Source: Candidatus Woesearchaeota archaeon (GTDB lineage Archaea > Nanobdellota > Nanobdellia > Woesearchaeales > ARS49). Taken from it: a stretch of 38,741 bases of DNA. The notes beneath the pieces were generated by a model, which was given only the letters and a program-made list of their open reading frames with translations, was not told the origin of the DNA and did no database searches. The position numbers and the translations under genes were made by a program. The stretch lies in assembly GCA_002687275.1 (NCBI GenBank), contig NYZT01000027.1, positions 1 through 38,741 of the forward strand, read 5' to 3'. Positions within the stretch are counted from its first letter, which is position 1. The number at the start of each line of letters is the position of its first letter. Shown here one piece after another: positions 11,277-38,741 of the stretch.

Positions 11277-11526
11277 TTTCGTCCGGTCTCATCAGACAAT
11301 GCATTATCTGGGAGCGGCACTTCCACTCTTTCAAGAATGCCTTAACCTTCTTTTCATGCTCGGGTCTTACCAAGAGCACGGTCTTGGCAAGCTGCACGAT
11401 GCCGCACTCTTCAACAATGCCTGGCTTGTTTCCCCTACCCTTGAGCGCGTAGAAGAACCTGACCTTGTCTTTGTACACCAAGTGCTTGGTGTCATACGTG
11501 ACAATGTTCATGGGCACCAAGTTCAT
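11254..11526 (-). CDS. Small uncharacterised protein, paralog of the 83-aa protein at 22742
   Basis: 90 aa, last gene of the minus-strand giant operon. Its ATG overlaps the giant gene's TGA in an ATGA junction, which implies translational coupling. It is soluble, without signal peptide or TM segment. It shares about 55% identity over ~62 residues with the protein that opens the operon; conserved blocks are DKVRF-YA-KGR and AFLK-WKC. The alternating hydrophobic pattern suggests a small alpha/beta fold. No family recognised. Its position directly behind the giant gene, with the paralog directly in front, suggests a role tied to production or regulation of the giant protein, which is inference only. 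The C-terminal ~20 residues after the shared core are unique. Confidence 0.8.
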   Translation of the reverse strand: MNLVPMNIVTYDTKHLVYKDKVRFFYALKGRGNKPGIVEECGIVQLAKTVLLVRPEHEKKVKAFLKEWKCRSQIMHCLMRPDEISASKRA

Positions 11527-17500: not shown

Positions 17501-20500
17501 GGGTGTAGTTCCAGCTGGATTGTTTTACCCATCGCCATCCTTGTCTGATGTTGAGGCTGTTGTCATTCTCGTCATACATGGCTGAGGTGCCTCTTTCTCC
17601 GCCGGAGCTGCCACTGGCGTTGAGTTTTTCTATGGAGATGGTGGTGGTGTTGTAGCCAATGAAGATCATGCCGCCTCCGCTTCTGGCCCCAGTGCCTGTC
17701 GCGTCGAGCGTACCGTTGCCTACGAGTTCGTTGACGAGGATGTTGATGCTGCCTCCGCTTCCTCCTCCTGCTGAGCCGCTTCCATCAATTCCGTTGGCGC
17801 TGATGTTGCCAGAGAGGTTGGCAAAGTTGGATCGTATGATGATCACGCCTCCTCCTCTTCCCCCCGCGCCTCCTCCGCCACTGTTTCCTCCTCCGCTTCC
17901 GTGCTCAACAGGGTTTGTTGGGTCGTCATACACTTGGCCAGAAGGTAGTGGGGGTTCTGTTGTTGCTGGCCCGCCTAGACCTCCGTGGCCTGCTCCTGGG
18001 GCATCCCCGCTAGCGGAATCCGTGCCTGCGCCTGGACCAAGACCTGCGTCAAATCCTGTGCCGTCCGAAAGAATGACTGAGCTTATAGTGAAGGTGAAGT
18101 TAGGGCTGGTGATGTTTAGCCTGCTTGTTCTGTTGATGACGGCCTCTACCAAGAAGGAGGTTCCTGCTCCGATGGTGAGATTGCCGATGAAGCTTTCGTT
18201 GTTCTTTGGTTGGATGCTCGAGTTTGTTATGTGGAAGACGCTGGCGGTGATGTTGAGCGTGTTGTTAGCTAGCGTGATTGCGTTTGTGACGTTCAACAGG
18301 GTGAAGTTCCAGGCAGACAGTTTTACCCATCGCCAGCTCTGTCTGATGTTGAGGCTGTTGCTGTCCATGTCAAACATGGCTGCGGTGCCGGGATTGCTGC
18401 CATTCGCTCCGTCAACAAACATGTTCTCTATGCTTGTGGTGGAGGTGTTGTAACGCAACATAATCATGCCTCCTCCGCCTCCTGAAAGTCCGCTGCCTCG
18501 TGACATATACTTTCCGTCTCCGTGTAGGGTGTTGACGAGTACGTTGATGCTGCCTCCACTTCCCCCTCCGCCTGGACCATCGCTCGCCCCGCCGTCTGTG
18601 GTGATGTTTCCTGACATGTTCAACCTGTCAGCTCTGATGAAGACTGCTCCGCCTCCTCTTTGTCCTCCTTTGCCTCCTCCACTTCCAAGCTCGACAGGAT
18701 TCAAGGGATCATCGTAAACTTCGCTGCGAGGCATGGGAGGAGTTTCGCCGAGTATCTCGCTGCCTGCTCCACCATGTCCTCCTGGGCCGCCAAAGGTTGA
18801 ACCGTCCATTCCTCCTCCGGGTCCTGCGGAGGCGTTGAAGCCAGAGGCTTCCAGGATGATGAAGGATTCGCTGTCAATGCTGACGTTGACCGATGTTACA
18901 TTGAATCGTGTGAAGTTTCCTATGGTCGAGCTCAGTATGGACATCTCCGTGGTGTTCACGGTGAGGTTCTTGTCTAGATCCAGACTTACGTTTCCAGCAA
19001 GAAGCAGCGTGCTGTTTTGCATGCGGAAGAACGCGCCAGAGATGTTGATGCTGACGTTGTAGGTGGCTGCCACGTTTGTTAAGTTCATGGAAAACGCGTA
19101 TACGGGTGTCTCGTCAAACGTCCAGGACTGTCGCATGTTGAACGCGCCAGTGACGAGATCCACAAATGCTAGCGAGCCCGGGAAGGCCTTTCCTCTGCTG
19201 CTCACAGAAGATCGAGTGGGGTCGAGCGTGCTGGTGTTCGCTCTGACAATGATACGCCCTCCGCCGCCTGAGGCGTTCTCATGATCTGCGGCTCCTTCTG
19301 CCTCGAGACGTCCGTTTCCTATGAGGGTGTCTACCAGGATGTTGATGGTGCCTCCGCTTCCGCCGCCGCCATCACTTGCGAGGCTGATGCCACCTGTTAC
19401 CGTGATGTTTCCGCTCATGTTGAGTGTGGATCCTCTGATGAACACTGCGCCTCCTCCTCTTCCTCCTTCTGTGGTGCCGTCGTCACCTGCTCCGCCCTGA
19501 CTTCCTGGGTTGACGGGGTTGCGTGCGCTGTCATAGCTAATACCTGCTAGTACGGGGGGGTCGCCAGGAGAGTCTAACCCTTTGCCTCCGTGTCCTGCGC
19601 CAGACCCATGGGGGTGGCCGGCTGTGTCGTCCTGTCCTACTCCTGGACCGCCATAGGCAGAGCTGTTTGCCTCAATGTTGGCCTGCTCGTCGATGGTGAT
19701 GTTGACGCTGGTGATGTTGACAACAAGAAAATCGGCGAGTATGCTGTTTTTCATTTCCATGTTGGTGGCGTTCATGGTTAGGTTGATCGTTTGATTTTCC
19801 AGCGAGCCCTCAATCGTGGCGTTGACCATGCTGAACACGTCCACGCTAATGTTGAGAGTGTCATTCATGGTCACGTTGACCCCTATGATGCGCAGGCTGC
19901 CTATGTCTTGTAGGCTTGCAGAGGGGAATCTGAAGTCTTCGATCAGGTAGACAACGTCGTCGTCCACGTCCAGCAGGAACAGTGTGCCGGGCTTTGCGTT
20001 GGGCCCGCCTCCTAAGACGTCATAGTTATCGTGGGTGAGGCTGGAGTGATTGTACTCGATACGCATTCTTCCGCCTCCGCCGCGGCCACCTCCACCTCCT
20101 CCCCTGGCGGTGATGTTTCCTGTACCATTCATGTGGTTTGTGATGATATGGACGGTGCCTCCTCCGCCTCCGCCGCCAATTCCGGAGCCACCGCTTTGGA
20201 TGCCTGAGGCGCCGTCTGCGCTTATGGTGCCGTTAACGATGAGCACGTCTGCCTCGAGCTTGAGAATGCCTCCTCCTGCTCCAGCCAAGCCGTCATCAGT
20301 ACTGCCTGCGTGGCCTCCTCCATCGCCTGGCTGGAAGGGATTCACAGGGTCACCGTAGGCAATACCTCCGGGGTTGATGGGGTCTCCTTTGCCTTCTCCA
20401 CTACCTCCGTGGCCTCCTCCAGGCCCGTCGGTAGAATCATCGTCTGAGTCTGAGAGTTGGTTGACGCCCTGATTGGCCTGGTAGCCCGTGCCGTTCAGCA

Positions 20501-22751
20501 GAATGTCTCCTTCTACGGTGATATTCTCTGCTTTGATGAGTATGCTTTCGTTGCCTATACTCGTGGCGTTAATGATCATGATGGCTCCTGCGCTAACGTT
20601 GATGTTGTCGCAGGTCTTGTTGCTCGTTACGTATTCTGTGCCGGTGATGACCCAGTTGGCGCTCGCGGCAGGACAGCTCGCAAATTTGGTGACATTAAAC
20701 TCGAGATAGATGCTGTGGTTTTTGTTGTTGGATGTGTCATTCGCCAGTATGGTGAGGTTGTACTCCCCTGGTGTGTCGGTCGCTAGCGTTACCAAGGTAT
20801 TGTTGAACTCTGTGCCTGACTTGTTGAACAATTGTACTAGCACGTTGCTACCGTTGGGGATGGTGATGTTGGCGTACACGGTGTCTGTGATGTTGTCATC
20901 CGTGACGTTGACCTCGATGGTGGTGGTGTTGCCCCGCTGGAACTGTCGAGGCGTGACGTTAAGTTTGGTTACTTCGGGGACCTCGACGTCCGACGTTAGC
21001 GTGATTTCGTACTGGATGGTCAGCACAGGATAGTTGGTGATGTTGGCGTCTTCTTGCATCACGATCTCTGCGGTGGAGTTGGATTCGTTATGCTCCAACG
21101 TTCGTATGCCAAAAGTGAACATGTCGCCTCCTGTCAGCACGCTTTCGATGTCATCTGAGGCGTTAAGGCTTAGTTGCTGAGTGGCCTTCCAGTAGCAGCC
21201 AGAAGAGGTAAGGCACGTATCTTTTGTCTCATGCCCAGCAACGTTGCACCCGTCCACGTGATCCTCACACGCGGATCCGGCCCATGTGCAACCGGCGTTG
21301 ACGCTACACGCTGGTTCGTCTCCTTGTTCGGCACAGTTATCTCTGAAGCCCCTGCAAAGGCTCCTGTCGTTGGTGAAGTTAGTGCTGCCGTGGAAGTAGA
21401 TGTCGATGCTGCCGTTGGTGCCGTTGTAGAGGTCGTTGTTGCCTTGGGCGTTGTCTGTGTAGTCTGCTGCGGGTTTGGAGATTCTAGCAACCGTGATGTT
21501 GTCCTCATCGGTTATTTCTACTGCTGTTAGCGTGAGGTTCACCAGTGTTATGTTGGCGTTGTCAGGAATGATGGTGGTGTTGAAGTCCAGGAAGAGGCGA
21601 TAGCTTGCGTGTTTTGTGTCGCCCCAGGTGCACGGTGTTTGGGAGGTACAGTCATCTTCGAGGGTTAGGTTGGTGCATGGCTCGACCGTGCCCTCACAGC
21701 TGTCTCCGTCCCAGGTGCAGCCTCGCTGGGTGTTGCAGCTACCTTCATCACCGATATCGCCGCAGGGAGTGGGAGTTCCTGAGCAGCCGGGCATGGTTTT
21801 GTTGCCAAGGGATGCGTTGGAGAAGGTGGTGTCTCGGGTGTATTGGGTTATGTTTTCACTGGTCTCGTTCCTAAGGGTGTACCCGTCCAGCGTGAGGTTG
21901 CCTCCGTCTAGCGAGACGACGGTGATGGAGACTGCTTGTATGAGGAGGTCTCCTTGTTGTTGAACAGGAGCAACAGAGAAGCCTACGGCCTCTCCTGCCG
22001 ATCTGAACAGGGTGAAGTGGTCAACGGTAAAACTAACGTCTCCGTTGTCGTACTGGATGTTGGTACAGCTAGGGTTGGTCTGGTCGTCACAGGCCGCCCA
22101 GGTTGTTCCGTCATCGCTGTACTCGATCTTGCTCCCTATTGCGCCGTTGATGGTGAGGATTGCTGTTTTGTTGAGATGGATGCACTTGGTCGTGTCCAGC
22201 CCGAGGAGATTATCCTCAACCGTGAGACACTCGTGGATGCCGGTGTAGTTCAGTTTGCCACCGAAATCAATCTTTCCAAGATCGCCGCTTATGCTGCCGT
22301 CTTCCTGGATTTGCATACCTTTCGGTATGAGCAAGAAATTGTAGTTGAGGATTGCAGCATCATCCTCTTCGTCCGCTGCGTCCTCTAGCGTGGTTGTGTC
22401 TTCGATAAGACTGGGAAGGTCTGTAAGGTCTGGGATGTCTTCGATGGTGGGTGCACCAAACTCGTAAAGTAGCGTCTGTTGAGAGATGTTGGAGCCCACG
22501 AGTAAGGATACCGTAAGCTCCACCTCTCTTACTGTTGCGTGGTTCTTGGTTAGCGTTAGTAATTCTCCATCAACTTCTGTTGTGACGTTTTCGTGCGTCT
22601 GGACGAGGAAGGTGTCTGCCGGGCCTAGGAGCTCGGTGAGGTTTAGCGTGGTTGTTGGCAGATCTAGACCGAAAAGTCCTGTGATCGTGCCTCCGGCTAT
22701 CCCGAGCCCGGCGATGACGATGAAAACGGCGAGGAGCTTTCTTACTTCCAT
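11523..22751 (-). CDS. Giant Gly/Asn-rich repeat surface protein with C-terminal lipase-like domain and cytoplasmic repeat tail
   Basis: 3,742 aa from the ATG at 22751, chosen over the tracked GTG at 22781 because GGAGG precedes it and a signal peptide (KLLAVFIVIAGLGIAGG) begins at once. Order: signal 1-24; beta-rich region; two Cys clusters with C-W-G motifs (~320-374, ~465-520); Ig-like domain (~594-685); seven Gly/Asn-rich ~265-aa repeats (~700-2550), each with a GHGG motif and about a dozen N-x-S/T sequons; Ala-Pro linker (~2770); alpha/beta hydrolase (~3050-3280) with LILIHGF, nucleophile motif AHSMGG, and candidate acid and base in NDGVVGV and LDHGQ; CGNGVCGQGE Cys motif (~3335-3353); about three TM helices (~3360-3460); a basic cytoplasmic tail of six ~43-aa repeats. 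The hydrolase would sit just outside the membrane. Substrate unknown; lipase, esterase and PGAP1-like amidohydrolase are all possible. Confidence 0.9.
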   Translation of the reverse strand: MEVRKLLAVFIVIAGLGIAGGTITGLFGLDLPTTTLNLTELLGPADTFLVQTHENVTTEVDGELLTLTKNHATVREVELTVSLLVGSNISQQTLLYEFGAPTIEDIPDLTDLPSLIEDTTTLEDAADEEDDAAILNYNFLLIPKGMQIQEDGSISGDLGKIDFGGKLNYTGIHECLTVEDNLLGLDTTKCIHLNKTAILTINGAIGSKIEYSDDGTTWAACDDQTNPSCTNIQYDNGDVSFTVDHFTLFRSAGEAVGFSVAPVQQQGDLLIQAVSITVVSLDGGNLTLDGYTLRNETSENITQYTRDTTFSNASLGNKTMPGCSGTPTPCGDIGDEGSCNTQRGCTWDGDSCEGTVEPCTNLTLEDDCTSQTPCTWGDTKHASYRLFLDFNTTIIPDNANITLVNLTLTAVEITDEDNITVARISKPAADYTDNAQGNNDLYNGTNGSIDIYFHGSTNFTNDRSLCRGFRDNCAEQGDEPACSVNAGCTWAGSACEDHVDGCNVAGHETKDTCLTSSGCYWKATQQLSLNASDDIESVLTGGDMFTFGIRTLEHNESNSTAEIVMQEDANITNYPVLTIQYEITLTSDVEVPEVTKLNVTPRQFQRGNTTTIEVNVTDDNITDTVYANITIPNGSNVLVQLFNKSGTEFNNTLVTLATDTPGEYNLTILANDTSNNKNHSIYLEFNVTKFASCPAASANWVITGTEYVTSNKTCDNINVSAGAIMIINATSIGNESILIKAENITVEGDILLNGTGYQANQGVNQLSDSDDDSTDGPGGGHGGSGEGKGDPINPGGIAYGDPVNPFQPGDGGGHAGSTDDGLAGAGGGILKLEADVLIVNGTISADGASGIQSGGSGIGGGGGGGTVHIITNHMNGTGNITARGGGGGGRGGGGRMRIEYNHSSLTHDNYDVLGGGPNAKPGTLFLLDVDDDVVYLIEDFRFPSASLQDIGSLRIIGVNVTMNDTLNISVDVFSMVNATIEGSLENQTINLTMNATNMEMKNSILADFLVVNITSVNITIDEQANIEANSSAYGGPGVGQDDTAGHPHGSGAGHGGKGLDSPGDPPVLAGISYDSARNPVNPGSQGGAGDDGTTEGGRGGGAVFIRGSTLNMSGNITVTGGISLASDGGGGSGGTINILVDTLIGNGRLEAEGAADHENASGGGGRIIVRANTSTLDPTRSSVSSRGKAFPGSLAFVDLVTGAFNMRQSWTFDETPVYAFSMNLTNVAATYNVSINISGAFFRMQNSTLLLAGNVSLDLDKNLTVNTTEMSILSSTIGNFTRFNVTSVNVSIDSESFIILEASGFNASAGPGGGMDGSTFGGPGGHGGAGSEILGETPPMPRSEVYDDPLNPVELGSGGGKGGQRGGGAVFIRADRLNMSGNITTDGGASDGPGGGGSGGSINVLVNTLHGDGKYMSRGSGLSGGGGGMIMLRYNTSTTSIENMFVDGANGSNPGTAAMFDMDSNSLNIRQSWRWVKLSAWNFTLLNVTNAITLANNTLNITASVFHITNSSIQPKNNESFIGNLTIGAGTSFLVEAVINRTSRLNITSPNFTFTISSVILSDGTGFDAGLGPGAGTDSASGDAPGAGHGGLGGPATTEPPLPSGQVYDDPTNPVEHGSGGGNSGGGGAGGRGGGVIIIRSNFANLSGNISANGIDGSGSAGGGSGGSINILVNELVGNGTLDATGTGARSGGGMIFIGYNTTTISIEKLNASGSSGGERGTSAMYDENDNSLNIRQGWRWVKQSSWNYTLLNVSNALTKANDTLNISASVFHLIDSIIEGNTNESLIGNFTLSAGTSLIMDSTINRTSRFNITSPNFTLTVGSVILSDGTGFASDSGPAFGMTGATEAGSGAGHGGRGMQGENFPLEPYDNPLNPEEAGSGGASEPGGALGGRGGGVVFIRSSFSNLSGNITVDGVLPPPGSQNTGGAGGSINILVGNLTGGGFLTAKGANASSGGMILVQYNFTKIPITNIAVDGDGGAEPGTAAMFDLDDNSLNIRQGWRWVKQASWNYTLLNVSNALTKANDTLNISASVFHLINSTIEGNTNESFIGNFTLSAGTSLIMDSTINKTSAMNITSPNFTLTANSFISADKAGFRAEQGPGAGLGGANGGSGAGHGGKGSDFIEDAGDNSPGGNPYDSPFNPIQPGSGGGARLSQGGGAGGGVVFIRGNQVNISGNITATGEDYQGTDIGAGGSGGTINVIVNNLTGNGNFEARGADNSSGGMITVRTNFSTISIENTDVSGKSGGGVGTIAFFELNASSVQIRGGWRWVLTDLSIWNYATINITQAATTSNHSLTLNVTNLILYNASIIPNPSQNLSNLSITAEHILLDMAQIANVTRLNISTTNMTLDVQSIITTKGFGAETGPGAGPIGSSESNGSGGSHGGVGAPTWISTANPEIVQESYGSRYGSAFNPVELGSGGGGAGAAPTVNGSQGGGLVFIEAGLINISGNLSVDGFGDQEGGGGSGGSINIVTDVIDGQGYLLARGRGGTGEGGGGGRIMIKYNTSLVNNSHLLANGSNGGVTGTVGLYDIDHDHLYAVQGWEWSAVDQNNFNISNATMLPGTVVRGTGAIVTLNSTYIMDGATFAGTNGSTEIQAEFFYVRNATFNGTAAGVKFVYQNRYHDNHSVIITDSTFKLGQLNTSGIEFGGVAGNVNNLSGFLVLAEDYALANTSLESNLDVAAQITFFNTLFENPRATRDPEDDGVFETCPSNVCTEVSFANRVHVYNVTGFSSYGEDANPGTGKIVVPRSSSAPKKTAKAEEATEAPAPAPAPAPAPAAPAAKATGVSAATSQRRSNIGRLFISQEDIEAEEVACAQGEAGSQVKIKKAGAPPVPTGYSILADPFAMDCKGDNVVLTLSVSENYENITTLKCNRDGCEFVGVEKPTEFECGGVSYSELVLSEYSKEGLEIDRKRVLTKEAIITPEKPRVQVESYTIEFEDVTKPFRFNMKPHALSLPQVDKHIALLVDPIEITQDSGKPQTVTISVQSPRTSNVLEGEFPAFRRQNGDMQSIVTNYDGSAVSGTFETNTTSVLGFYGIRCDSCDDVTMSKEHDGGSRQALILIHGFMSSPATWLPLIEEFRLTKQPQQVYSIAYPSTLDFKEISRQTRLLIEGTLQEFDTVDIVAHSMGGLITQQVLKDMTRKEFEEKLRKLILAGTPNDGSPAIDIYKKVQKRIGAKKNIVPFLAASPTAVQSLSQGIQLPRMEDKEYVVLAGNRPFSIETALFTVESDQIAQFFDEPNDGVVGVKSAQHVGGEYVNNKCEDYFEMELDHGQIIDHAVPRKVIARLVAKRVEGKVTLGFNQYVRLNINNCQPGYTYAVVGQEIDEATVADPLNCKCGNGVCGQGEDSVNCPSDCLIVDKDAKNLLPMIIYGFLLAMIALILYGEFKRHKYGKDLPRLFRLSKVGIALLLGATLGLHHYLYEALVPAYVLLALIVVSVLVEFFRHAHMPHLPRMPHPLRRWKPRRQPVMMPTLKRLHDAFLKVSLPKLKPIRLPRRESLPPPKWDLPKVKYKPFSIKPQPTPQPKPRTSGERLQEMLGKRHHRAWTKEGQVAQVPKPLHQLKKQFGTRYERYLQQTPKAKPHVAPVQKKPRMPAHKPRYGFDKLKQKFASRVEDRLQYTKPEPEVVRPPQRIERKPHEHKGHMLESLKKSFDTSYRTKTSYVRPEPRPTPKPRPVKKRERHTNVSLDRLRESLGTSYQRQVKPKPVVKHKPKEPPTKEEHTYTHAKRLRDLKKKFGGGKK
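11530..12165 (-). repeat. Six ~43-aa basic repeats encoding the cytoplasmic tail
   Basis: After the last TM helix the protein carries six copies of a motif L--LK--FG(T)-Y/R-R, for example LHQLKKQFGTRYERYL, FDKLKQKFASRVEDRL and LDRLRESLGTSYQRQ, centred near 12150, 12063, 11935, 11806, 11681 and 11552. Short amphipathic helices are separated by Lys/Pro/Arg-rich linkers. The strong positive charge agrees with a cytoplasmic location. Confidence 0.75.
15100..20650 (-). repeat. Seven tandem ~790-820-bp repeats in the giant gene
   Basis: GHGG-type motifs recur near 20410, 19590, 18775, 17985, 17190, 16402 and 15592, giving a period of 788-820 bp (about 263-272 aa). Each unit has an Asn/Ser/Thr-rich beta region (NISASVFHL-type), a GHGG loop, a Y-D-P-NP-E-GSGGG segment, a GGGVVFIR strand block, NLSGNI, a GG-GGSINILV block and a closing RQGWRWV block. 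The regular beta pattern suggests a solenoid or stacked sandwich stalk. Units 5 and 6 are nearly identical in their shared core, while the outer units are more diverged. Confidence 0.85.
16660..16729 (-). repeat. 70-bp exact copy shared with 17449-17518
   Basis: These 70 bp are identical to 17449-17518, exactly 789 bp (263 codons) away in the neighbouring repeat unit. The preceding ~110 bp on the + strand (from about 16543 and 17332) is also close to identical. Identity at the nucleotide level, including synonymous sites, points to recent duplication or gene conversion between adjacent units. Confidence 0.85.
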
Positions 22752-22993
22752 ACAGCCCTCCGTGTGTAGCTGCACTTCCACTGCTTGAGAAATGCCTCTA
22801 CGGTGTTAGCGTGTTGTTTCTTAACCAAGAGTGCGGTTCTGCCTAGTTGTTCAATTTTTAGGTCTTGGATGATTCCAGATTTGCCATCTCTGCCCTTGAT
22901 GGCGTAGTAAAATCTGACCTTGTCAGAGTATTTTAGATGGGTGGTCGAATAGGTAAAAACGGCAAACTCGGTGTGACTACTACCAACAACCAC
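22742..22993 (-). CDS. Small uncharacterised protein opening the giant operon
   Basis: 83 aa, GTG start at 22993. It is soluble, with no signal peptide. It is homologous to the 90-aa protein at 11254-11526 (shared DKVRF-YA-KGR, QL--T-LLV and AFLK-WKC blocks), so two paralogs bracket the giant gene. The stop codon lies 10 nt inside the giant gene (TAA at 22742-22744, giant ATG at 22751), which couples their translation. The TATA box is about 31 nt upstream of the start codon and leaves a leader of only a few nucleotides. Function is unknown. A regulator, assembly factor or ribosome-associated factor for the giant protein are possibilities that the sequence alone cannot separate. Confidence 0.8.
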   Translation of the reverse strand: MVVGSSHTEFAVFTYSTTHLKYSDKVRFYYAIKGRDGKSGIIQDLKIEQLGRTALLVKKQHANTVEAFLKQWKCSYTRRAVWK

Positions 22994-26702: not shown

Positions 26703-27428
26703 ATGGATACGTCGCTGCTTGCGGAAGTGGGCCTCACGCCTCGAGAGATAGAGATCTATCTGGCCTTGTTGAGGCATGGTCCCTGTCTTGCAAACAAGCT
26801 CTCCAAGCACTCTTCAGTGTCAAGAACACACATCTACGAGGCACTGAACATGTTAAAAGAGAAGGGACTGGTGTCTTCGGTGGTGCAAGACTTCGCCCAC
26901 GTTTTTTCTGCTACTGCCCCTGACAATATTTCTGCGTATCTGGACAGGAAGAAAGCAGCGATCGAACAACAACAGCTACGAGCAAAGGTCTTAGAGACAG
27001 AACTCAAAAAGTTGCGGCAACCCATGATGTCAAAGCCAAAGATCGAGGTGTATGAAGGCAGGGAGGGCGTGAAGCACCTGTTTGTGGACGTGCTCAAGCA
27101 AAGAAAGGAACTCATGGTGATCAACGTAGCCGAACATACCAAAGACGTGTTAGGTCCGTATGCACAACGCTTTTTTGCTGAGAAGAAAAAACGAAAGATT
27201 CCCAGCAGAATTATCTTTTCCAAAAAGTTTCCTTTCCTTGACCCAACGGCAAAGAAGCGATTCATGCTTCGCAAGGATACTGGCCCGGCCATGACTGCCA
27301 TCTACGGTGACAAGGTGGTTTTGGTGTTGTGGCTCGAGCAGCCCGTTTCGGTCGTTATTGAAAGTAAAGAAGCTGCACGAGAGTACAAGGAATACTTTGA
27401 GGTGTTGTGGAAGGCAAGCAAGAGCTAG
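26703..27428 (+). CDS. TrmB-family transcriptional regulator
   Basis: 241 aa. The N-terminal winged helix-turn-helix (~1-75) matches the TrmB pattern: L-E-VGLTPREIEIYLALL, then SVSRTHIYEALNMLKEKGLV. A coiled-coil dimerisation helix follows at ~80-105 (RKKAAIEQQQLRAKVLETEL), then a small alpha/beta effector domain (~110-241) opening with KIEVYEGREGVKHLF. It lacks the longer C-terminal sugar-binding region of the founding TrmB, so the ligand is unknown. In other archaea such proteins control sugar uptake and central carbon metabolism; nearby pgk would fit, but that is inference. A palindrome overlaps its own promoter. Its stop codon overlaps that of the convergent lspA gene. Confidence 0.88.
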   Translation: MDTSLLAEVGLTPREIEIYLALLRHGPCLANKLSKHSSVSRTHIYEALNMLKEKGLVSSVVQDFAHVFSATAPDNISAYLDRKKAAIEQQQLRAKVLETELKKLRQPMMSKPKIEVYEGREGVKHLFVDVLKQRKELMVINVAEHTKDVLGPYAQRFFAEKKKRKIPSRIIFSKKFPFLDPTAKKRFMLRKDTGPAMTAIYGDKVVLVLWLEQPVSVVIESKEAAREYKEYFEVLWKASKS

Positions 27429-27823
27429 TGTTTTTTCCGGAACTCATCCCAGATGAGTCCGATAACGCCAACGGTTATCGCTGCGTCTGCGATGTTGAAG
27501 ACGGGCCAGAAGTGGAGGTTGATGAAGTCGATGACGCCGCCGTAGAGTATGCGGTCGAGGATGTTTCCTGCCGCGCCGCCAACGACAAGGGCGAGCATGC
27601 GCTCGCACCACTTGTTCTTCATCATGCTTTTGCGATAGCGCCAGATGCCTGCGAGGATGGCGACGCTCACGCCGAGCCATACTAGGTTGTTGCTGCCCAT
27701 GCCGAACAGCGTTCCTGTGTTCTGGATGGAGTGCTCTGCAAAAATATATTTGGTTAGTCTGTCAAGGACGAGTACGACTAAGGCGATATGGAGAAAGCTA
27801 CCACTTGACTTCTTTTTTGTCAT
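27425..27823 (-). CDS. lspA: Signal peptidase II (prolipoprotein signal peptidase)
   Basis: 132 aa, slightly short for the family. Aspartyl membrane protease that removes signal peptides from lipid-modified prolipoproteins. Family motifs are all present: DRLTK in the first helix, NTGTLFG, GAAGNILDR carrying one catalytic Asp, GGVIDFI, and FNIADA carrying the second. Four hydrophobic helices are visible. LspA is standard in bacteria but absent from most archaea, so this copy suggests ancient or recent transfer from bacteria. It overlaps the upstream proline-rich gene by 26 nt, has no obvious ribosome-binding site, and ends at a CTAG shared with the convergent regulator gene. No Lgt homolog is visible in the window. 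Confidence 0.93.
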   Translation of the reverse strand: MTKKKSSGSFLHIALVVLVLDRLTKYIFAEHSIQNTGTLFGMGSNNLVWLGVSVAILAGIWRYRKSMMKNKWCERMLALVVGGAAGNILDRILYGGVIDFINLHFWPVFNIADAAITVGVIGLIWDEFRKKH

Positions 27824-30742: not shown

Positions 30743-31594
30743 ATGGTTCTCGAGAGCCTCACCAATCCCTTCAAGGCAGAACAAAAACCTTGGGGCTTGT
30801 TCGGAATAGGATTCTTGTACGCAGCCATCGCGGTGTTTGCTAGCCTATGGATTTTCCGAGAGCAGGCAAGCATGGTGATGGTGTTCTTTGCCGTCATAGC
30901 AGGCCTGCCATTATTCTACCACACCATGCAGGTTGAGGAGAAGAAGGATCTAAAACTGTTGAAGGAGATGCAAATGCTTCGCGAGCACGCAAAAGCCCTG
31001 CGCTTCTTTATCTTATTTTTCTGCGGGGTTACCGTGGCCTTCACCGCCGCGTACGTCATCCTGCCTGCAGAGACAACGTCGGCTCTTTTTTCTGCCCAAG
31101 AGACCACCATCGTGACGGTCAACCAGAAAGTCACGGGTAACATGTTTTCCTTAGATATCCTAAGCAAGATTTTTTTGAACAACATCAAGGTCATGGTGTT
31201 CTCCTTGCTGTTCTCGTTCTTGTACGGGACAGGCGCGTTGTTCATCCTCATGTGGAACGCTAGCGTGTTGGCTGCTGCTGCAGGAAACTTTTTCAGATCA
31301 CACCTTGCAGAATATGCCGCAAGCTCTGGTTTCGCCCAGGTGGGTGCGTACTTTGCGGTTTCTTCATTCACGGTGTTACGATACGCCATCCATGGCATCC
31401 CAGAGATACTGGGGTATTTTGTGGCAGGACTCGCAGGTGGCATACTGAGCGTGAGCATCATGCGCAAGGACTACCAAAACCATGAGTTTGAGAGAGTGCT
31501 GCTAGACGTCTCCGACCTCGTCGTCCTCGCCGCCTTGATCCTCTTCGCAGCAGCCATACTAGAGGTATATGTTACTCCGTTGTTCTTCCTCTAG
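30743..31594 (+). CDS. SpoIIM-family (DUF95) integral membrane protein
   Basis: 283 aa with about six TM helices: two near 20-60, one at ~85-107, and three or more from ~150 to the end. Family-like features are FLNNIKVMVFSLLFSFLYGTGALFI followed by a conserved small-residue WNASVLAAAAG loop, then RYAIHGIPEILGYFVAGLAGG (HG-PE motif) and a final hydrophobic helix. Bacterial SpoIIM works with SpoIID/SpoIIP in peptidoglycan remodelling during sporulation. Archaeal homologs occur widely without sporulation, and their role is not established; membrane transport or envelope organisation are guesses. It is a single gene with its own promoter and leaderless start. Confidence 0.85.
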   Translation: MVLESLTNPFKAEQKPWGLFGIGFLYAAIAVFASLWIFREQASMVMVFFAVIAGLPLFYHTMQVEEKKDLKLLKEMQMLREHAKALRFFILFFCGVTVAFTAAYVILPAETTSALFSAQETTIVTVNQKVTGNMFSLDILSKIFLNNIKVMVFSLLFSFLYGTGALFILMWNASVLAAAAGNFFRSHLAEYAASSGFAQVGAYFAVSSFTVLRYAIHGIPEILGYFVAGLAGGILSVSIMRKDYQNHEFERVLLDVSDLVVLAALILFAAAILEVYVTPLFFL

Positions 31595-32422: not shown

Positions 32423-33265
32423 ATGGGAAGCGTACAAGACTTCGTTAAAGCATATTATGAGGCGCAGACGTATCTTGACGATCACGACGTCGAGAAGGCC
32501 ACTGCCTCGTACAAAGAATTGCTAGGCCTATACGAAGACATCAAGACCGAGGGCACAGAGCAGGACAAGGCGGTAGCGCACGAACAAATATGCAAGTTAT
32601 ACTACAAGCTACAGCAACCCACGAGGAGCGTCGCTCCCTACTTTGCAGCAGGCTTGCTCGTCGTGCTACTAAGCTTCGTGGCCGTCGTCCAGCCATCCAT
32701 AGTGGGACTGCCCATCTTTCCCGAGACCATCTACCAAGACGTCAACGTGGCCACGAGCAGGACAGGATTCCTCAACGTCACGCTAGAGGGCATTCCTACG
32801 AGCATCCGCTTGAAAGGGGCTGGCCAGGGCAAGGTGTATCTAGTCCAAGGCAAGAACCTCATCAAGGTATGGGAAGGCGGGCCAGGGTATGAATGCGTTG
32901 ATAGCTGTGTCATCGACGGTATTGACACCAACAAGGTCGTTCTACTAATAGAACCAAAGGGTGGCCAGCTCAAGCTCGAAAAGGTCAAGTACACCGCCAG
33001 ACCCCTGCCCAACCACGTACCTGCCTGGACAGGCACCAAGACCACGTTTGCAGCACCTTTTTCGCTAAACCTTAGCGACCTATTCCAAGACGAAGATGGT
33101 GATGACCTGGTGTTCTTATCCAGCAAGCAGGCAGGATTGGTGGTGTCTATAGAGAACGACATGCTCTCTGTTTCTGCAGAGGAGCCAGGCGAACGCCAGA
33201 TAACAGTATACGCCTCTGATCTTAAGGGTGTGACAAGAATACCGCTCACTGTTACTGCTGAGTAG
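32423..33265 (+). CDS. Single-TM protein: cytoplasmic TPR-like helices, Ig/cadherin-like exterior
   Basis: 280 aa from ATG 32423. Residues 1-65 form TPR-like helices (YLDDHDVEKATASYKELLGLYEDI) with no signal peptide. A TM helix at ~73-95 (YFAAGLLVVLLSFVAVVQPSIVG) follows. The exterior has a beta-sandwich (~105-190) with one Cys pair (YECVDSC) and a C-terminal cadherin/putative-Ig repeat (~200-280) with FSLNLSDLFQDEDGDDL and a closing ITVYASDLKG strand. This is a type II orientation, with the helical domain inside and Ig-like domains outside. It could link cytoplasmic partners to the cell surface. The S-layer- or pilus-like operon begins 72 nt downstream under its own promoter. Confidence 0.78.
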   Translation: MGSVQDFVKAYYEAQTYLDDHDVEKATASYKELLGLYEDIKTEGTEQDKAVAHEQICKLYYKLQQPTRSVAPYFAAGLLVVLLSFVAVVQPSIVGLPIFPETIYQDVNVATSRTGFLNVTLEGIPTSIRLKGAGQGKVYLVQGKNLIKVWEGGPGYECVDSCVIDGIDTNKVVLLIEPKGGQLKLEKVKYTARPLPNHVPAWTGTKTTFAAPFSLNLSDLFQDEDGDDLVFLSSKQAGLVVSIENDMLSVSAEEPGERQITVYASDLKGVTRIPLTVTAE

Positions 33266-33300: not shown

Positions 33301-33315
33301 TATATTTATATAATA
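33301..33315 (+). promoter_or_regulatory. TATA box of the KGQ-protein operon
   Basis: TATATTTATATAATA lies about 30 nt before the ATG at 33338. The leader is at most a few bases. The rest of the gap 33266-33337 contains no clear terminator. Confidence 0.6.
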
Positions 33316-33337: not shown

Positions 33338-35476
33338 ATGTTTAAGGGGCAGGCGACACTGTTCGTCATACTTGGAGCACTATTGCTCATCACTATAGCT
33401 AGCGCCGCCTATTTTGTCAACCAACGTCAGGTCCAACTCTCAGAAGGACAGCTGCCAACACTACAAGAGGTGCCCGCAGTCGCCCAACCCGTGGTGGAGT
33501 ACTACCAAAGCTGCATCCGTCAGGTGGGAAGAGACGCGCTACGCCTCGTGGGCCTGCACGGAGGCTACACCTCGTCGCAAAGCCTACGTTCTAACCCTTA
33601 TGATCCCACAGGAGCAAACAACGACGGCGTGCACTTATTCCAGGACACAGACCTCGTGGCAGCATACTGGCACTACCTAAAAAGCCCGAACAACTGCGAA
33701 AAGCTCGGCGAGTGCGTGTATGATACAAAAAGACCTCCCCTGCGAGGCAGGGATTCCATCCAAAGCGATCTTGAGGACTACGTAAGCGCAAACCTGCCCT
33801 CGTGCCTACGTGACTTCCCCATGGAGGGGGTAACCGTCAAGCAAGACGATGACATTGACACCCGGGTCACGATAACCTCCCAGAACGTCCAGTTCCTCGT
33901 CAACCACGACCTCGTCATCCAGCGAGGAGGAGAATCATACCCCCGCGACCAGTTCCTCTACGTAGAAAACCTCAACATAGTTGAAATATATGATCTAGCC
34001 ACAGAGATAACCAACCTAGAACGACAGTTCAACTACCTCGAAAAGATGACCAAAGAGCTCATCTCCTCTTTTTCGGGAAGAAGCAGAAACAGGATGCCAC
34101 CCATAGCAGACTTTGAGGTTGCGCTAGCCGCGCCACGCTTCTGGACCAAGTTCGACTCAGAACGCATCTTCAGAGACGTCCTAGGAACCCACGCCAGCCT
34201 CTTCCAGGTGCTGAACACACGCGCCTACAGCCCCATCATCGCGCCTGCCGCAGTCGCAGACCCAGAACTCTTCGAACTCATCTACAACCGAATGTTCATC
34301 GTTCCCGTACAGACAGAATATCCAGACTTGACTGCAGACTTTGTCTATCTCGACTGGAAGCCATACTTTGACATCAACTGTCCGGGCCAGGTCTGCCGCC
34401 CAGAGGGCTTTGTGGCAAACTTCCTACCCCTTCCCTTTGGCTTCCACAGAACACGATTCTTCTACGACGTCAGCTACCCCGTCATGGTGGAGCTAAGCAA
34501 TCCAGACGCGTTCAACGGCCAAGGCTACAGCTTCAGATTCTTCCTCGAGGCAAACATGCGTAACAACAACCCGCTAACATCAGAGTACGTTGAGCTAGCA
34601 GACCCTGGCCTGCCCCAGCCATCCGAGTATTGCGATCCAACACGATGGCACACGCCAGCAAAATTCAAGGTAACCAATGGCTTTACTGGCAGAGCCGTGC
34701 CCGAGGCAGCCATAAGCTTCAACTGTGAGCCAGAAGAGTGCATGCTCGGCACTACAGACGACCAAGGAGTGTTTGAAGGGCTCGTACCTTCCTGTATAGG
34801 AGGGACCGCAACCGTGCTCCACAGAGACTATGCAAGCGTAAGCAAAGACGTAGACTCTGACCTGCCCTTTGAGGAAACCTTAGAATTCTACCCCTACGTC
34901 AACGTAGACTTCGAGGCAGAAAAATTACGCATACGAAAGACAGGAAACAACTTCTTCCTCGACGTTGTAAACCCTGCACCTCTGCGACCTTTCGAGCAGG
35001 CAGCAATACTATTAACCCGGAAGACCGAGGGCACAGAGCCAACCTTCACCGCCGTGGCAGAGATCCAAGGAGACCCCTTCAAGCCATCCCAAAACGAAAA
35101 CATAAGAATGGTGCCTGGCACGTACGAAGTACGCATCATGGCCTCGGCAAGTCCAGATCCTGCATGGGTGATCCCTCCACGCGAGAGATGCTTTGACGCA
35201 GGATTCTTCGACGAAGAATGCGTCATGCTGCCAGACGAAGAGATCAAGTTTGACAAGGACCAACCCTTCCCTACCGGAGACCACACCATGGAATGGGAGC
35301 TAACGCCAGAGAACCTCAAGGGCGCAAAAAGCATAACGTTCCGGTATGTCAGCTACGAACTCAGCCCCAACAACGACAACACGTTAGAGGACCTAGACAA
35401 GATCAACCTGCCAGCAGAGCTAACCGCAAGAGCAGAGACCCAAGAAAAACTACAACCGGTGATATTCTATGGCTAA
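33338..35476 (+). CDS. Large secreted protein with class III (KGQ) pilin-like N-terminus
   Basis: 712 aa from ATG 33338. The N-terminus MFKGQATLFVILGALLLI fits the archaeal class III signal, in which a prepilin peptidase of the EppA/FlaK type cuts between G and Q and leaves a hydrophobic helix (~5-26) that can assemble into a filament or stay in the membrane. The exterior is far larger than a normal pilin: a Cys-containing mixed domain (~40-200), helical and beta regions (~200-430), a carboxypeptidase-regulatory/Ig-like domain (~445-510, FTGRAVPEAAISF), and a second beta-sandwich (~515-690). First gene of an overlapping operon; its last 8 nt overlap the next gene. A surface-filament tip or anchor is possible, but this is inferred. 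Confidence 0.82.
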   Translation: MFKGQATLFVILGALLLITIASAAYFVNQRQVQLSEGQLPTLQEVPAVAQPVVEYYQSCIRQVGRDALRLVGLHGGYTSSQSLRSNPYDPTGANNDGVHLFQDTDLVAAYWHYLKSPNNCEKLGECVYDTKRPPLRGRDSIQSDLEDYVSANLPSCLRDFPMEGVTVKQDDDIDTRVTITSQNVQFLVNHDLVIQRGGESYPRDQFLYVENLNIVEIYDLATEITNLERQFNYLEKMTKELISSFSGRSRNRMPPIADFEVALAAPRFWTKFDSERIFRDVLGTHASLFQVLNTRAYSPIIAPAAVADPELFELIYNRMFIVPVQTEYPDLTADFVYLDWKPYFDINCPGQVCRPEGFVANFLPLPFGFHRTRFFYDVSYPVMVELSNPDAFNGQGYSFRFFLEANMRNNNPLTSEYVELADPGLPQPSEYCDPTRWHTPAKFKVTNGFTGRAVPEAAISFNCEPEECMLGTTDDQGVFEGLVPSCIGGTATVLHRDYASVSKDVDSDLPFEETLEFYPYVNVDFEAEKLRIRKTGNNFFLDVVNPAPLRPFEQAAILLTRKTEGTEPTFTAVAEIQGDPFKPSQNENIRMVPGTYEVRIMASASPDPAWVIPPRERCFDAGFFDEECVMLPDEEIKFDKDQPFPTGDHTMEWELTPENLKGAKSITFRYVSYELSPNNDNTLEDLDKINLPAELTARAETQEKLQPVIFYG

Positions 35477-38400
35477 CCTCCGACCAGCACTAGTGATGAT
35501 CGCGCTCATACTCAGCCTGCCCCTCGCCCAGGCGCAACTACTCAACGTCGTTGAGTTTGGCGGCTCAGACAATGTCGTGGGCTTCATCCGCGACGGGGAA
35601 AGCCTAAGAGCGGTCGTCCAGGCAAGCATCCCTGGCGAGGACGTCATTGACGACCAGCAGATACGCATCGTGTTTGGAAGCACCTTCCAAACCATGGACT
35701 CATGCGCAGACAAAGGAGGCGGGTTGTTCGAATGCACGTTTACGAGAAGCCAACCGCCCTTAGGAGACTACACCGTCAAGCTAGTGGATGACGCCAACAA
35801 GCTCAACCAAAACGCTCCGAGCGTGCTCGAAAAAGACGTAACCCTGGGCCAGGACGGCCTACCTCCCGCAGTGTTCGTGAGCGTCACCCCCACGCTAAGC
35901 AGAGACGGCCGAGGCACGGTAAGCGTACGCGTGGAGGACTACTCCACCGCTGTTGGAGACACCAATGCCTGCTCCGGTATCAAAACAGCCACGATAAAAG
36001 CCGACAGCACCACCGTAGGCAGTCTCAGTGGCAATCCAAGCGAATGCATACTTACCAGCACAATAGACCTCCAAGAGACCGCCACAGGATTCAAGGACGT
36101 CCAGATCTGCGGCACTGCAGAAGATTTTGTTGGCAGGACAAGCCCGGAAAAGTGCACCACCTTTAGCATAGACAACAACCCGCCAGTAATAGGAAGTCTT
36201 GAGATACGGAACAACATCGGCACGATAACCCACCTGAAAAGCGGAAGTCCACAAAGCGTAAGCGTAGCCGTCCAGGTAACAGGAGACAACGACGACCTCG
36301 TAGAGATCAAAGCAGACCTGACATCTTTGGGAGGCAGCATACGCAGCCCTGACAGTAGCTCAGGCAACAGCTTTGTCTGGAACACCGCCCTCACGCCAGA
36401 CGCAGCCTGTAGCATCAGCGTTGAGGCAACAGACGCACTAGGCAACCGAGCCACCAAAAACTTTGATTGCAAACTCCCACTCGATGACGAGGGTCCTGCC
36501 ATCAACAGCGTGGTATCCGCGGTGCTAGACGGAGAAACATTAGTGCTGGGCAAAAAAGCAGACATCCTCATCGCTGTTGAGGACAAGGACAACGCAGGCA
36601 GCAAAGGTGTGGGCGTGGCGGGCGGCGGCGTGTTCGTCGATACCAACCAGCTAGGAAAGGGCATAGTCCAGGTCGAAGAATGCAAACCAAGCGGTGCCAC
36701 TTTTGTCTGCAGACTACGCTTCAAAAACACAAGAGATGTGACCACCACCATAGAAGTGGTGGCAGCCGATGATCTCGGTAATGAGGGCGCCAGCGTCACC
36801 AAAAACGTTCGCGCAAAAGTACAAGGGCCAAAAATCATCCAGATCAGCCCCATCAAGGTCTTGCTAGGTGAAGAAGGTGATACTGGCGTGGTGGCCACCC
36901 AAGGAAGCGTGCTAGAAATCAACGCAAACGCAACAGGATTCACCACGACCATGGCCAACTTTAACGGCACCGACGGTGGCGAGGTGGCAGGAGGCTGCGA
37001 AGGAAACGCTTGCTTATTCCAATCCACCATCCAGAACACCGGGCCATTTGAGACAGAGATAACCGTGAGCTTCTTTGACGAGGTGGGCAACGAAGCCAAG
37101 AAAATCCTACCTCTTACCGTAGCAGGAACAAAGGATGTAGAGAATCCTAACTTCTGGGGAAGCGAGATCAGCTGCACACCCGAACTCATCGACAGAGACA
37201 CGGCAAGCATGATCAGCCAGAAAAGATTCTGCAAAGTCCAACTCACGCCAAACAATGAGGGACAGAAGCCAAGCACGGTCGCCATCCAACTCGACAAGAC
37301 ACAATGCACCGGCACCTTTGAGGGCGCGCTGGCAGACCTCCAACTCATCAACAACGTCCAGGGAAGCACCTCCCCCATCATGGTCTACACACTAGATGCC
37401 AAAGACTTCGAGGTTGATGACTTGTTGATAGAATGCCCGCTACTCATCCGAAGCACGGTAGGAACAGGGAACAAGACCCTTCTCGTCAACCAGCCAGAAA
37501 GCGAGATGGTCAACACCACCATACTCTTCTACAACCAGCCCTTCGGCACCATGTTCAAGAACCAGCAAGAAGAGATCGACAAAGAACTCGAAGATGCTGA
37601 GGACGCCATGAAATGGGTCGGCGCGCTGAACAAGATAGTCAAGATCGCAGAGGCCATATGCAAACTCTACCACATGGTCAGCCAGCTACTCGTGACGCTG
37701 ACCACCGCCACCGTCGTGCTGAAGAACATCGGCGAGAAGACCTTCCCATTCGGAGCAGGGGTAAAAGCAGCCGGCGACGTCATGTGCGGCAGCGTAGAGA
37801 CCGGCAGGAAAACGTTAGAAGATAAACTCTATCCCAAATTCTTCAACCCCTTCTGCAGCTTTGTCAACTGCCAATACACCAGCACAGACGCACTTGACGA
37901 GGACAAGTTCACCGGAAAACTAGCAAAAGCAACAGGCGGAGGAAGCGGAGGCCTAGGCAACATCTGTACCAAGGTGAACGCCTTCCTAGCTGCAAACACC
38001 GGCGCGCTAGGCAAGTTCGCCCTAGGCGCGGACGGCCGAAGCATCAGCCTCGGCCAAGAAGTGGGTGCTGCGCCAGCACCTGGCGGCAAGATACCCGAAG
38101 GCGGCATCATCAAAGGTAGCACCAAAGGTGTGGAGAAGAACTGCGCAAAACTCTCCAAAGATACAGGGGTGGCGGACGCGTGTAGCGTGCCACTCAACGT
38201 GATCAACGTCAAGGATAGCCTGTTCTGGAGCAGCATATGCTTATGCTTACCTGGCGTCATCAAAGGGTTGGAAAGAATACGCCAGATCAAATGCCAGTAC
38301 GGCGTATGTATAAAGAAGGATGTCGTCCAAGGAGGCATGCCACTTACGTACTGCAAAGACCTCAAATCCTACCTCACCTGCACGTATGTTGTGGGAGAGA

Positions 38401-38720
38401 TCTGGAACGCCATTCCCTTCTCAGCACTCATGGACCGGCTAACCAGCGCGATAACAGACGTGCTCACGCTAAACCCTGGAGCCATCGCAGCACTAGGCTT
38501 TGGCGTGGTGTGCGCGTGCCCACAAACCGCAGAGTTATGGCAGGCATGCGCCCTGGTAAAGATAACCTCGCAACTGTCAGAGGCAGCCTTCCAAATCAAA
38601 CAGATGTTCGCGGCAGAGAGCTTCTTCAAAGACGCCCTAGGCATCACGGACCAAGGAGATTATTGTGCAGAGCTCGAAGAACTCGACGAAGGAACCACCA
38701 GCACCGGAGCGAGCCCATGA
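35469..38720 (+). CDS. Large secreted Ig-like protein with Cys-rich hydrophobic C-terminal region
   Basis: 1,083 aa from ATG 35469, which follows a GGTGAT ribosome-binding site and overlaps the upstream gene by 8 nt. Signal peptide 1-~22 (MIALILSLPLAQA, cut before QLL). Residues ~25-690 form several Ig/cadherin-like sandwiches, each opening with a -PP-I or GPAI motif (DNNPPVIGSLEI, DDEGPAINSVV) and carrying Cys pairs. An acidic helix (~700-720) leads into a mostly helical, moderately hydrophobic region with many Cys (~730-1070; SICLCLPGVIKG, CQYGVC, VVCACPQ). This C-terminal part may contain membrane helices. It shares an operon with the KGQ protein and the next gene (ATGA overlap), so the three probably form one surface complex. 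Confidence 0.82.
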   Translation: MANLRPALVMIALILSLPLAQAQLLNVVEFGGSDNVVGFIRDGESLRAVVQASIPGEDVIDDQQIRIVFGSTFQTMDSCADKGGGLFECTFTRSQPPLGDYTVKLVDDANKLNQNAPSVLEKDVTLGQDGLPPAVFVSVTPTLSRDGRGTVSVRVEDYSTAVGDTNACSGIKTATIKADSTTVGSLSGNPSECILTSTIDLQETATGFKDVQICGTAEDFVGRTSPEKCTTFSIDNNPPVIGSLEIRNNIGTITHLKSGSPQSVSVAVQVTGDNDDLVEIKADLTSLGGSIRSPDSSSGNSFVWNTALTPDAACSISVEATDALGNRATKNFDCKLPLDDEGPAINSVVSAVLDGETLVLGKKADILIAVEDKDNAGSKGVGVAGGGVFVDTNQLGKGIVQVEECKPSGATFVCRLRFKNTRDVTTTIEVVAADDLGNEGASVTKNVRAKVQGPKIIQISPIKVLLGEEGDTGVVATQGSVLEINANATGFTTTMANFNGTDGGEVAGGCEGNACLFQSTIQNTGPFETEITVSFFDEVGNEAKKILPLTVAGTKDVENPNFWGSEISCTPELIDRDTASMISQKRFCKVQLTPNNEGQKPSTVAIQLDKTQCTGTFEGALADLQLINNVQGSTSPIMVYTLDAKDFEVDDLLIECPLLIRSTVGTGNKTLLVNQPESEMVNTTILFYNQPFGTMFKNQQEEIDKELEDAEDAMKWVGALNKIVKIAEAICKLYHMVSQLLVTLTTATVVLKNIGEKTFPFGAGVKAAGDVMCGSVETGRKTLEDKLYPKFFNPFCSFVNCQYTSTDALDEDKFTGKLAKATGGGSGGLGNICTKVNAFLAANTGALGKFALGADGRSISLGQEVGAAPAPGGKIPEGGIIKGSTKGVEKNCAKLSKDTGVADACSVPLNVINVKDSLFWSSICLCLPGVIKGLERIRQIKCQYGVCIKKDVVQGGMPLTYCKDLKSYLTCTYVVGEIWNAIPFSALMDRLTSAITDVLTLNPGAIAALGFGVVCACPQTAELWQACALVKITSQLSEAAFQIKQMFAAESFFKDALGITDQGDYCAELEELDEGTTSTGASP

Positions 38721-38741
38721 GAAAACTCACCAGCCTCATAC
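38717..38741 (+). CDS. Start of a third operon gene, truncated by the window edge
   Basis: ATG 38717 overlaps the upstream TGA in an ATGA junction and has GGAG a few bases before it. Only MRKLTSLI is visible, which looks like the basic start of a signal peptide. Product unknown. Confidence 0.55.

Follow-up and report, generated by a model that had tools for sequence, protein, structure and literature searches.

A conserved operon coupling a large prepilin-type protein to a giant immunoglobulin-like secreted protein in a Woesearchaeota-type archaeon

At the end of a 38,741-nucleotide contig (NYZT01000027.1, here C27; the window) in the 1.09-Mb draft genome of a Woesearchaeota-type DPANN archaeon (GCA_002687275.1), two overlapping genes encode KGQ1, a 712-residue protein with a prepilin-type start, and P2, a 1083-residue secreted protein with immunoglobulin (Ig)-like repeats. 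The host is a tiny uncultured archaeon whose relatives are presumed, as a group, to grow attached to other cells. A preliminary description of this DNA had proposed an overlapping operon of these two genes and a third secreted gene, and both large open reading frames were found at the positions and lengths it gave (Table 1). The gene overlaps were likewise confirmed: the 3' end of KGQ1 and the 5' end of P2 share 8 bp, and P2 runs into the third gene through an ATGA. Only 25 bases of the third gene are inside the window; its counterpart in a congener encodes a protein with a signal peptide, on a contig that likewise stops within that gene. Because contig and window end together, the operon beyond the start of the third gene is outside view. 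The conserved TATA box directly 5' of KGQ1 is a candidate promoter and suggests a leaderless KGQ1 transcript starting at KGQ1 itself; its surrounding sequence TATATTTATATA also precedes KGQ1 in two relatives (G001 and G015).

Table 1. Features of the KGQ1-P2 operon and its flank (positions in the window)
Feature	Position	Strand	Description
280-aa single-pass membrane protein	32423-33265	+	Cytoplasmic helical N-terminus, one transmembrane segment (residues 78-96), extracellular part
TATA box TTTATATA inside TATATTTATATA	33305-33312	+	Candidate promoter element, about 26-33 bases 5' of the KGQ1 ATG
KGQ1 gene	33338-35476	+	712-aa class III (prepilin-type) signal-peptide protein with a large ectodomain
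KGQ1 leader MFKG	33338-33349	+	Predicted prepilin-peptidase cut between G4 and Q5 (33349/33350)
KGQ1 N-terminal helix	33341-33445	+	Residues 2-36; sole hydrophobic segment (AlphaFold model and hydropathy)
KGQ1 transthyretin/CnaB-like Ig-type domain	34649-34897	+	About residues 438-520; Foldseek, span judged from the strand pattern
P2 gene	35469-38720	+	1083-aa secreted protein; Ig-like repeats, then a helical Cys-rich C-terminus
P2 Sec signal peptide	35469-35534	+	Predicted end past LPLAQA
P2 Ig-like beta domains, about six	35538-37538	+	Residues 24-690, conserved Cys pairs; model, number from the strand pattern
P2 all-helical Cys-rich C-terminal region	37554-38717	+	Residues 696-1083; model and family alignment
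Third gene, 5' part	38717-38741	+	Begins MRKLTSLI..., ATGA overlap (4 bp) with P2, cut at the contig end

KGQ1 and P2 share 84% and 80% identity, respectively, with their congener counterparts, and related proteins were found in 86/96 (KGQ1, single-sequence search) and 70/96 (P2) relatives of the order, indicating that neither is a chance reading frame. By profile search the KGQ1 family extends to 208 of the 237 sampled genomes of the phylum, a count that, like the 86/96, includes paralogues. The P2 profile matched 96 of 148 genomes, all but five weak matches lying within the order; judged by these matches, the P2 family is essentially confined to the order. Conservation of the operon, proposed as a check in the preliminary description, was borne out at the level of gene order: among the 63 genomes with listed matches for both proteins, the two genes lie on the same contig and strand in 57, with P2 directly downstream of KGQ1 in 46. 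A search of the whole collection returned a congener contig (JASMHM010000005.1) as its sole match. In 20 fully read loci, the layout runs, with losses and rearrangements, from KGQ1 and P2 through a variable secreted protein and a multi-transmembrane protein of about 280 residues to a second KGQ gene (KGQ2) and a second giant secreted protein. Homology between KGQ1 and KGQ2 extends along their length (E 2e-83); within the genus of the window, KGQ2 occupies a separate locus. A further KGQ-type gene of 435 codons on contig C14 (L116:2010-11976) overlaps the 5' end of a gene for a secreted protein of 2896 residues. The latter protein is Cys-rich, carries TSP3 repeats and extends past the contig end. 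KGQ1-P2 is a genuine surface module of DPANN archaea, conserved widely and as yet without a name.

KGQ1 begins with MFKGQATLFVILG, and its start has the features of an archaeal class III signal: a charged residue at -2 and G/A/S at -1, as the archaeal prepilin rule states (PMC4371748), with residues 1-32 hydrophobic. The prepilin-peptidase motif [KR][GAS]|Q occurs in 35/35 aligned KGQ1 proteins, each of the three positions (K/R at -2, G/A/S at -1, Q at +1) being invariant in this sense; of the 35, 32 have T at +3 and 34 have F at +5, the remaining protein having Tyr at +5. Residues 3-13 reach 77% majority identity, a value exceeded by only 3 of 701 windows and to be compared with an average of 51% for the core. 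As DNA, the KGQ motif has three matches in the genome and its reversed control none. These sequence features mark the beginning of KGQ1 as a class III (prepilin-type) signal of the archaeal kind.

Behind this signal, the AlphaFold2 model built from the KGQ1 alignment (mean predicted local distance difference test score, pLDDT, 85.5) has the N-terminal helix followed by an alpha/beta core (about 47-410); after the core come a transthyretin/CnaB-like domain and, last, an end rich in beta strands. In Foldseek searches, the Ig-type domain matched the 82-residue transthyretin-like domain of carboxypeptidase D (TM-score 0.74 by target; root-mean-square deviation 2.9), and one KGQ1 relative matches a transthyretin-like Pfam model at 0.0012. 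Up to an E value of 0.001, the only pilin matches were of the CnaB/sortase type, aligned through their Ig-like parts. Pfam, NCBIfam and PDB sequence searches assigned essentially no named family to KGQ1 or P2. One PDB profile match in these searches, to the 157-residue 'Anti-Parallel Protein 10' (0.0025), was treated as chance.

For P2, the label 'secreted' is based on the congener copy (G001), whose N-terminus is MRTKLLSLLMVGMLLVAAAPVVEA, and almost every full-length row of the P2 alignment has a hydrophobic start. The P2 model (mean pLDDT 74.9) consists of Ig-like strands over residues 24-690 followed by helices with many conserved Cys, with low confidence at about 740-910 and 1000-1083. Across the P2 family, Big_3_3 was matched in 11/31 members and Big_13 in some. 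The Ig-like domains of the preliminary description were recovered in both KGQ1 and P2. The Foldseek matches of P2 are generic Ig-repeat proteins, S-layer proteins among them, and its profile weakly matched a hexagonal surface-layer protein (E 0.0028). That description had also pointed to a Cys-rich, hydrophobic C-terminus. The first half of this holds: 17 of the 33 Cys of P2 lie past residue 695 (27 of the 33 are conserved), and the last 170 residues carry the family motif C.PGI. Hydrophobicity, on the other hand, is only mild, with family-mean Kyte-Doolittle (KD) maxima of 1.37-1.38, under usual transmembrane values, and the Cys-rich end is therefore probably not membrane-spanning. One P2 relative (G009, L067:8643-12194) ends in a cupredoxin-like domain, the Pfam match being assigned to it by way of its unique C-terminal extension.

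The genome encodes the type IV filament set of prepilin peptidase, assembly ATPase and platform protein. The preliminary description had named the peptidase and the ATPase as the genes to look for and had regarded absence of the former, together with a membrane location of the unprocessed protein, as telling against a filament or surface complex; one intact peptidase of 281 residues, with both catalytic motifs (TD...R and GGGD), is encoded on contig C26, and its family is present in 90/96 relatives. On contig C3 lies a gene for a divergent 752-residue pilus-type ATPase related to TadA (5e-34) and FlaI (8e-33), which is found in 91/96 relatives, at 95% identity in the congener and mostly 52-76% elsewhere. 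It is the single strong pilus-type ATPase in most of the family of the window, four genomes (G011, G012, G015 and G022) having another. The adjacent gene encodes a 716-residue TadC-like protein with eight predicted transmembrane segments, whose assignment as platform rests on this pattern and a weak profile similarity (hhalign E 2.4e-4), Pfam T2SSF missing it. The idea of a peptidase without a pilus motor, raised by the missing Pfam T2SSF match and a weak T2SSE match in the family, was ruled out by the TadA/FlaI-type ATPase and its TadC-like neighbour.

Several further observations concern these assembly genes. A small PilA-like gene starting KKGITPIVATVIL (L096:3573-4121, C26, minus strand) is separated from the gene for the prepilin peptidase by about 3.4 kb, and one relative has six PilA-like motifs within 16 kb (G003:C1). 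In the loci around the ATPase (L126, L127, L130, L133 and L135), the ATPase-TadC pair has conserved neighbours, among them up to three multi-transmembrane proteins of about 190-210 residues and small coiled-coil-like proteins. In three relatives (G003:C36, G014:C9 and G032:C1; L158, L156 and L157), the ATPase carries in-frame inserts of about 495 residues at two sites, after IED and after EVRS, with ends (...AHN|T or ...LHN|T) that appear intein-like from the sequence; judged by reading-frame length, such inserts are also present in G007, G062, G076 and G086.

Several described systems offer comparisons for the module. Modular type IV pilins (Streptococcus sanguinis PilB/PilC, CofB and GspK; PMC8179133) resemble KGQ1 in joining a prepilin-type helix to a bulky module, proposed to be displayed on the tip of the filament (PMC8179133). 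KGQ1 differs from them in its archaeal class III signal lacking a +5 Glu, in a core domain for which no match to the pilin fold was obtained, and in its separate, co-translated giant partner. P2, for its part, is like PilY1/PilC and the DUF2341-type giants of archaeal type IV pilus loci, very large secreted proteins encoded with pilin-like genes and predicted to be tip adhesins (PMC4858521), but it gave no PilY1 or DUF2341 match in Pfam or NCBIfam and has Ig-like repeats and a Cys-rich helical end instead. In the Sulfolobus bindosome (PMC4371748), large class III-signal proteins are run by pilus-type machinery, as we propose for KGQ1, whereas Pfam and NCBIfam scans found no substrate-binding protein domain in KGQ1 and its locus has no adjacent Bas-type genes. 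Modular pilins, PilY-like giants and the bindosome are thus comparable in working, and none is a family match to KGQ1 or P2. The same archaea are known to carry type IV pilus-like loci that combine CpaF and TadC with coiled-coil proteins (PMC11291902; PMC6393860), and pilus islands with unrecognised pilins have been predicted there (PMC6393860). The ATPase-TadC pair may be one of these loci, which, in the accessible parts of both accounts, feature coiled-coil proteins and not a KGQ-Ig-giant operon. The word 'undescribed' in the preliminary description accordingly stands for the named libraries searched (Pfam and NCBIfam), and no account of the KGQ-Ig operon was found in a limited open-access set of literature; it does not stand for DPANN pilus loci in general, which had already been noted.

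The interpretation we favour, with moderate confidence, is that KGQ1 acts as a pilin-like subunit of the modular type IV kind and presents P2 as a giant disulfide-rich adhesin. We infer that KGQ1 is cleaved and assembled or polymerised, and that it partners with P2 in adhesion and host contact. The prepilin peptidase would remove MFKG, leaving Q5 as the first residue of the hydrophobic helix, and the single TadA/FlaI-type ATPase would then engage this helix together with the TadC-like platform. KGQ1 would probably be a minor, tip-located subunit or form a short pseudopilus, with the rest of the protein outside the cell as a disulfide-bonded ectodomain with conserved Cys and the CnaB-like domain. 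P2, co-translated with KGQ1, would be Sec-exported where and when KGQ1 is made and would be kept there as a giant Ig-like adhesin by or beside KGQ1, or by its own Cys-rich end, much as PilY1/PilC is on minor pilins. The likely role of the pair would be attachment to another cell, cell contact being the most plausible role since cultivated DPANN archaea require direct contact with their hosts (PMC11291902). The probable product of the order-wide gene set is an adhesive tip or a complex on the cell surface, and the KGQ1-P2 pair is probably a new form of the arrangement of modular pilin and adhesin. A more speculative extension, which we offer tentatively, is that DPANN archaea of this order possess a distinct type IV-like machine, in which modular KGQ subunits of 600-900 residues are each co-translated with a giant disulfide-rich Ig adhesin, several such pairs per cell sharing a single divergent ATPase and a double TadC in a multi-adhesin host-contact organelle. 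Little has been established about host attachment by DPANN archaea, for which the KGQ-P2 module provides concrete candidates, with the KGQ family in most sampled genomes of the phylum and the adhesin-like partner across one large order. Modular pilins have so far been documented chiefly in bacteria; KGQ1 would add archaeal examples whose modules are very large.

A number of results weigh against KGQ1 as a pilin-like subunit. Outside the CnaB/Ig part, Foldseek returned no type IV pilin fold for KGQ1, and past the N-terminal helix no sequence link to pilins turned up. The +5 Glu of EppA-type pilins is absent from all 35 aligned proteins. The preliminary description had seen the start of small class III pilins in KGQ1; the class III signal holds, and KGQ1 shares the processing-site letters and the invariant +1 Gln with the EppA-dependent pilins of Methanococcus (KGQ/RAQ start; PMC4371748), but those are small and carry the +5 Glu, unlike KGQ1 with its 712 residues and +5 Phe, so that it is not simply an enlarged EppA-type pilin. 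The assembly genes are not in the KGQ locus, being spread over C3 (ATPase and TadC) and C26 (peptidase), and for this reason the partnership of ATPase and TadC with the operon on C27 is reached by elimination only. One genome of 91% completeness (G091) has KGQ1 and no match to the ATPase. Finally, co-occurrence of KGQ1 and the peptidase is weakly correlated (Fisher p 0.014, in incomplete genomes) and is uninformative as a test because both are near-universal.

Other explanations were also weighed. It is possible, if rather doubtful, that the class III signal just leaves a retained N-terminal anchor helix and that KGQ1 and P2 form a membrane-anchored surface array or a coat of the S-layer type, or else an assembly like the bindosome, with large proteins that are not pilins making use of the pilus apparatus. 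KGQ1 is several-fold larger than a pilin, as are the class III-signal subunits of the bindosome, at least four times pilin size (PMC4371748); the KGQ genes are few per genome and each very large; and S-layer proteins do occur among the P2 matches, alongside the weak surface-layer profile match. The S-layer and Ig matches of P2 are, however, those of generic repeats, library scans of the two proteins gave no substrate-binding or S-layer family, and Q, T and F at +1, +3 and +5 are conserved well past what an anchor would need. We find it very improbable that KGQ proteins instead make up the shaft of a thick filament, as pilin-like subunits of 600-900 residues, with the giant secreted proteins as its decoration. 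Several KGQ paralogues per genome would fit such a shaft, as would the scarcity of small PilA-like genes, found by motif in 3/26 genomes of the family, but the motif used for PilA-like genes is a narrow one that passes over pilins of other types, at least one PilA-like gene is present in the genome of the window itself (C26:30023-30048, minus strand), and subunits this large are unlike those of known shafts. It is very improbable that KGQ1 is an ordinary, unprocessed signal-anchored membrane protein with an accidental likeness to pilins: that likeness is indeed confined to the first 13 residues, and no pilin family model was matched, but the cleavage-site residues are invariant in 35/35 proteins, with a peptidase encoded in the same genome.

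Immediately upstream of KGQ1 lies the gene for the 280-residue membrane protein, which gave no Pfam match over the cut-off and whose extracellular part ends in a cadherin/Ig-like stretch, the fold of this last domain being judged by eye. Its homologues were found near KGQ1 in 9/11 loci of the same family and 0/9 loci outside it; by this gene context, it is an accessory gene beside KGQ1 within the family. A SpoIIM-family membrane protein is encoded further upstream (30743-31594, plus strand). Elsewhere in the window lie a gene for signal peptidase II (LspA), here in a DPANN archaeon (27425-27823, minus strand), and two giant reading frames of about 3600 and 3750 codons (80-10861, plus strand, and 11523-22781, minus strand), one with FG-GAP repeats and the other with a weak alpha/beta-hydrolase-like stretch.

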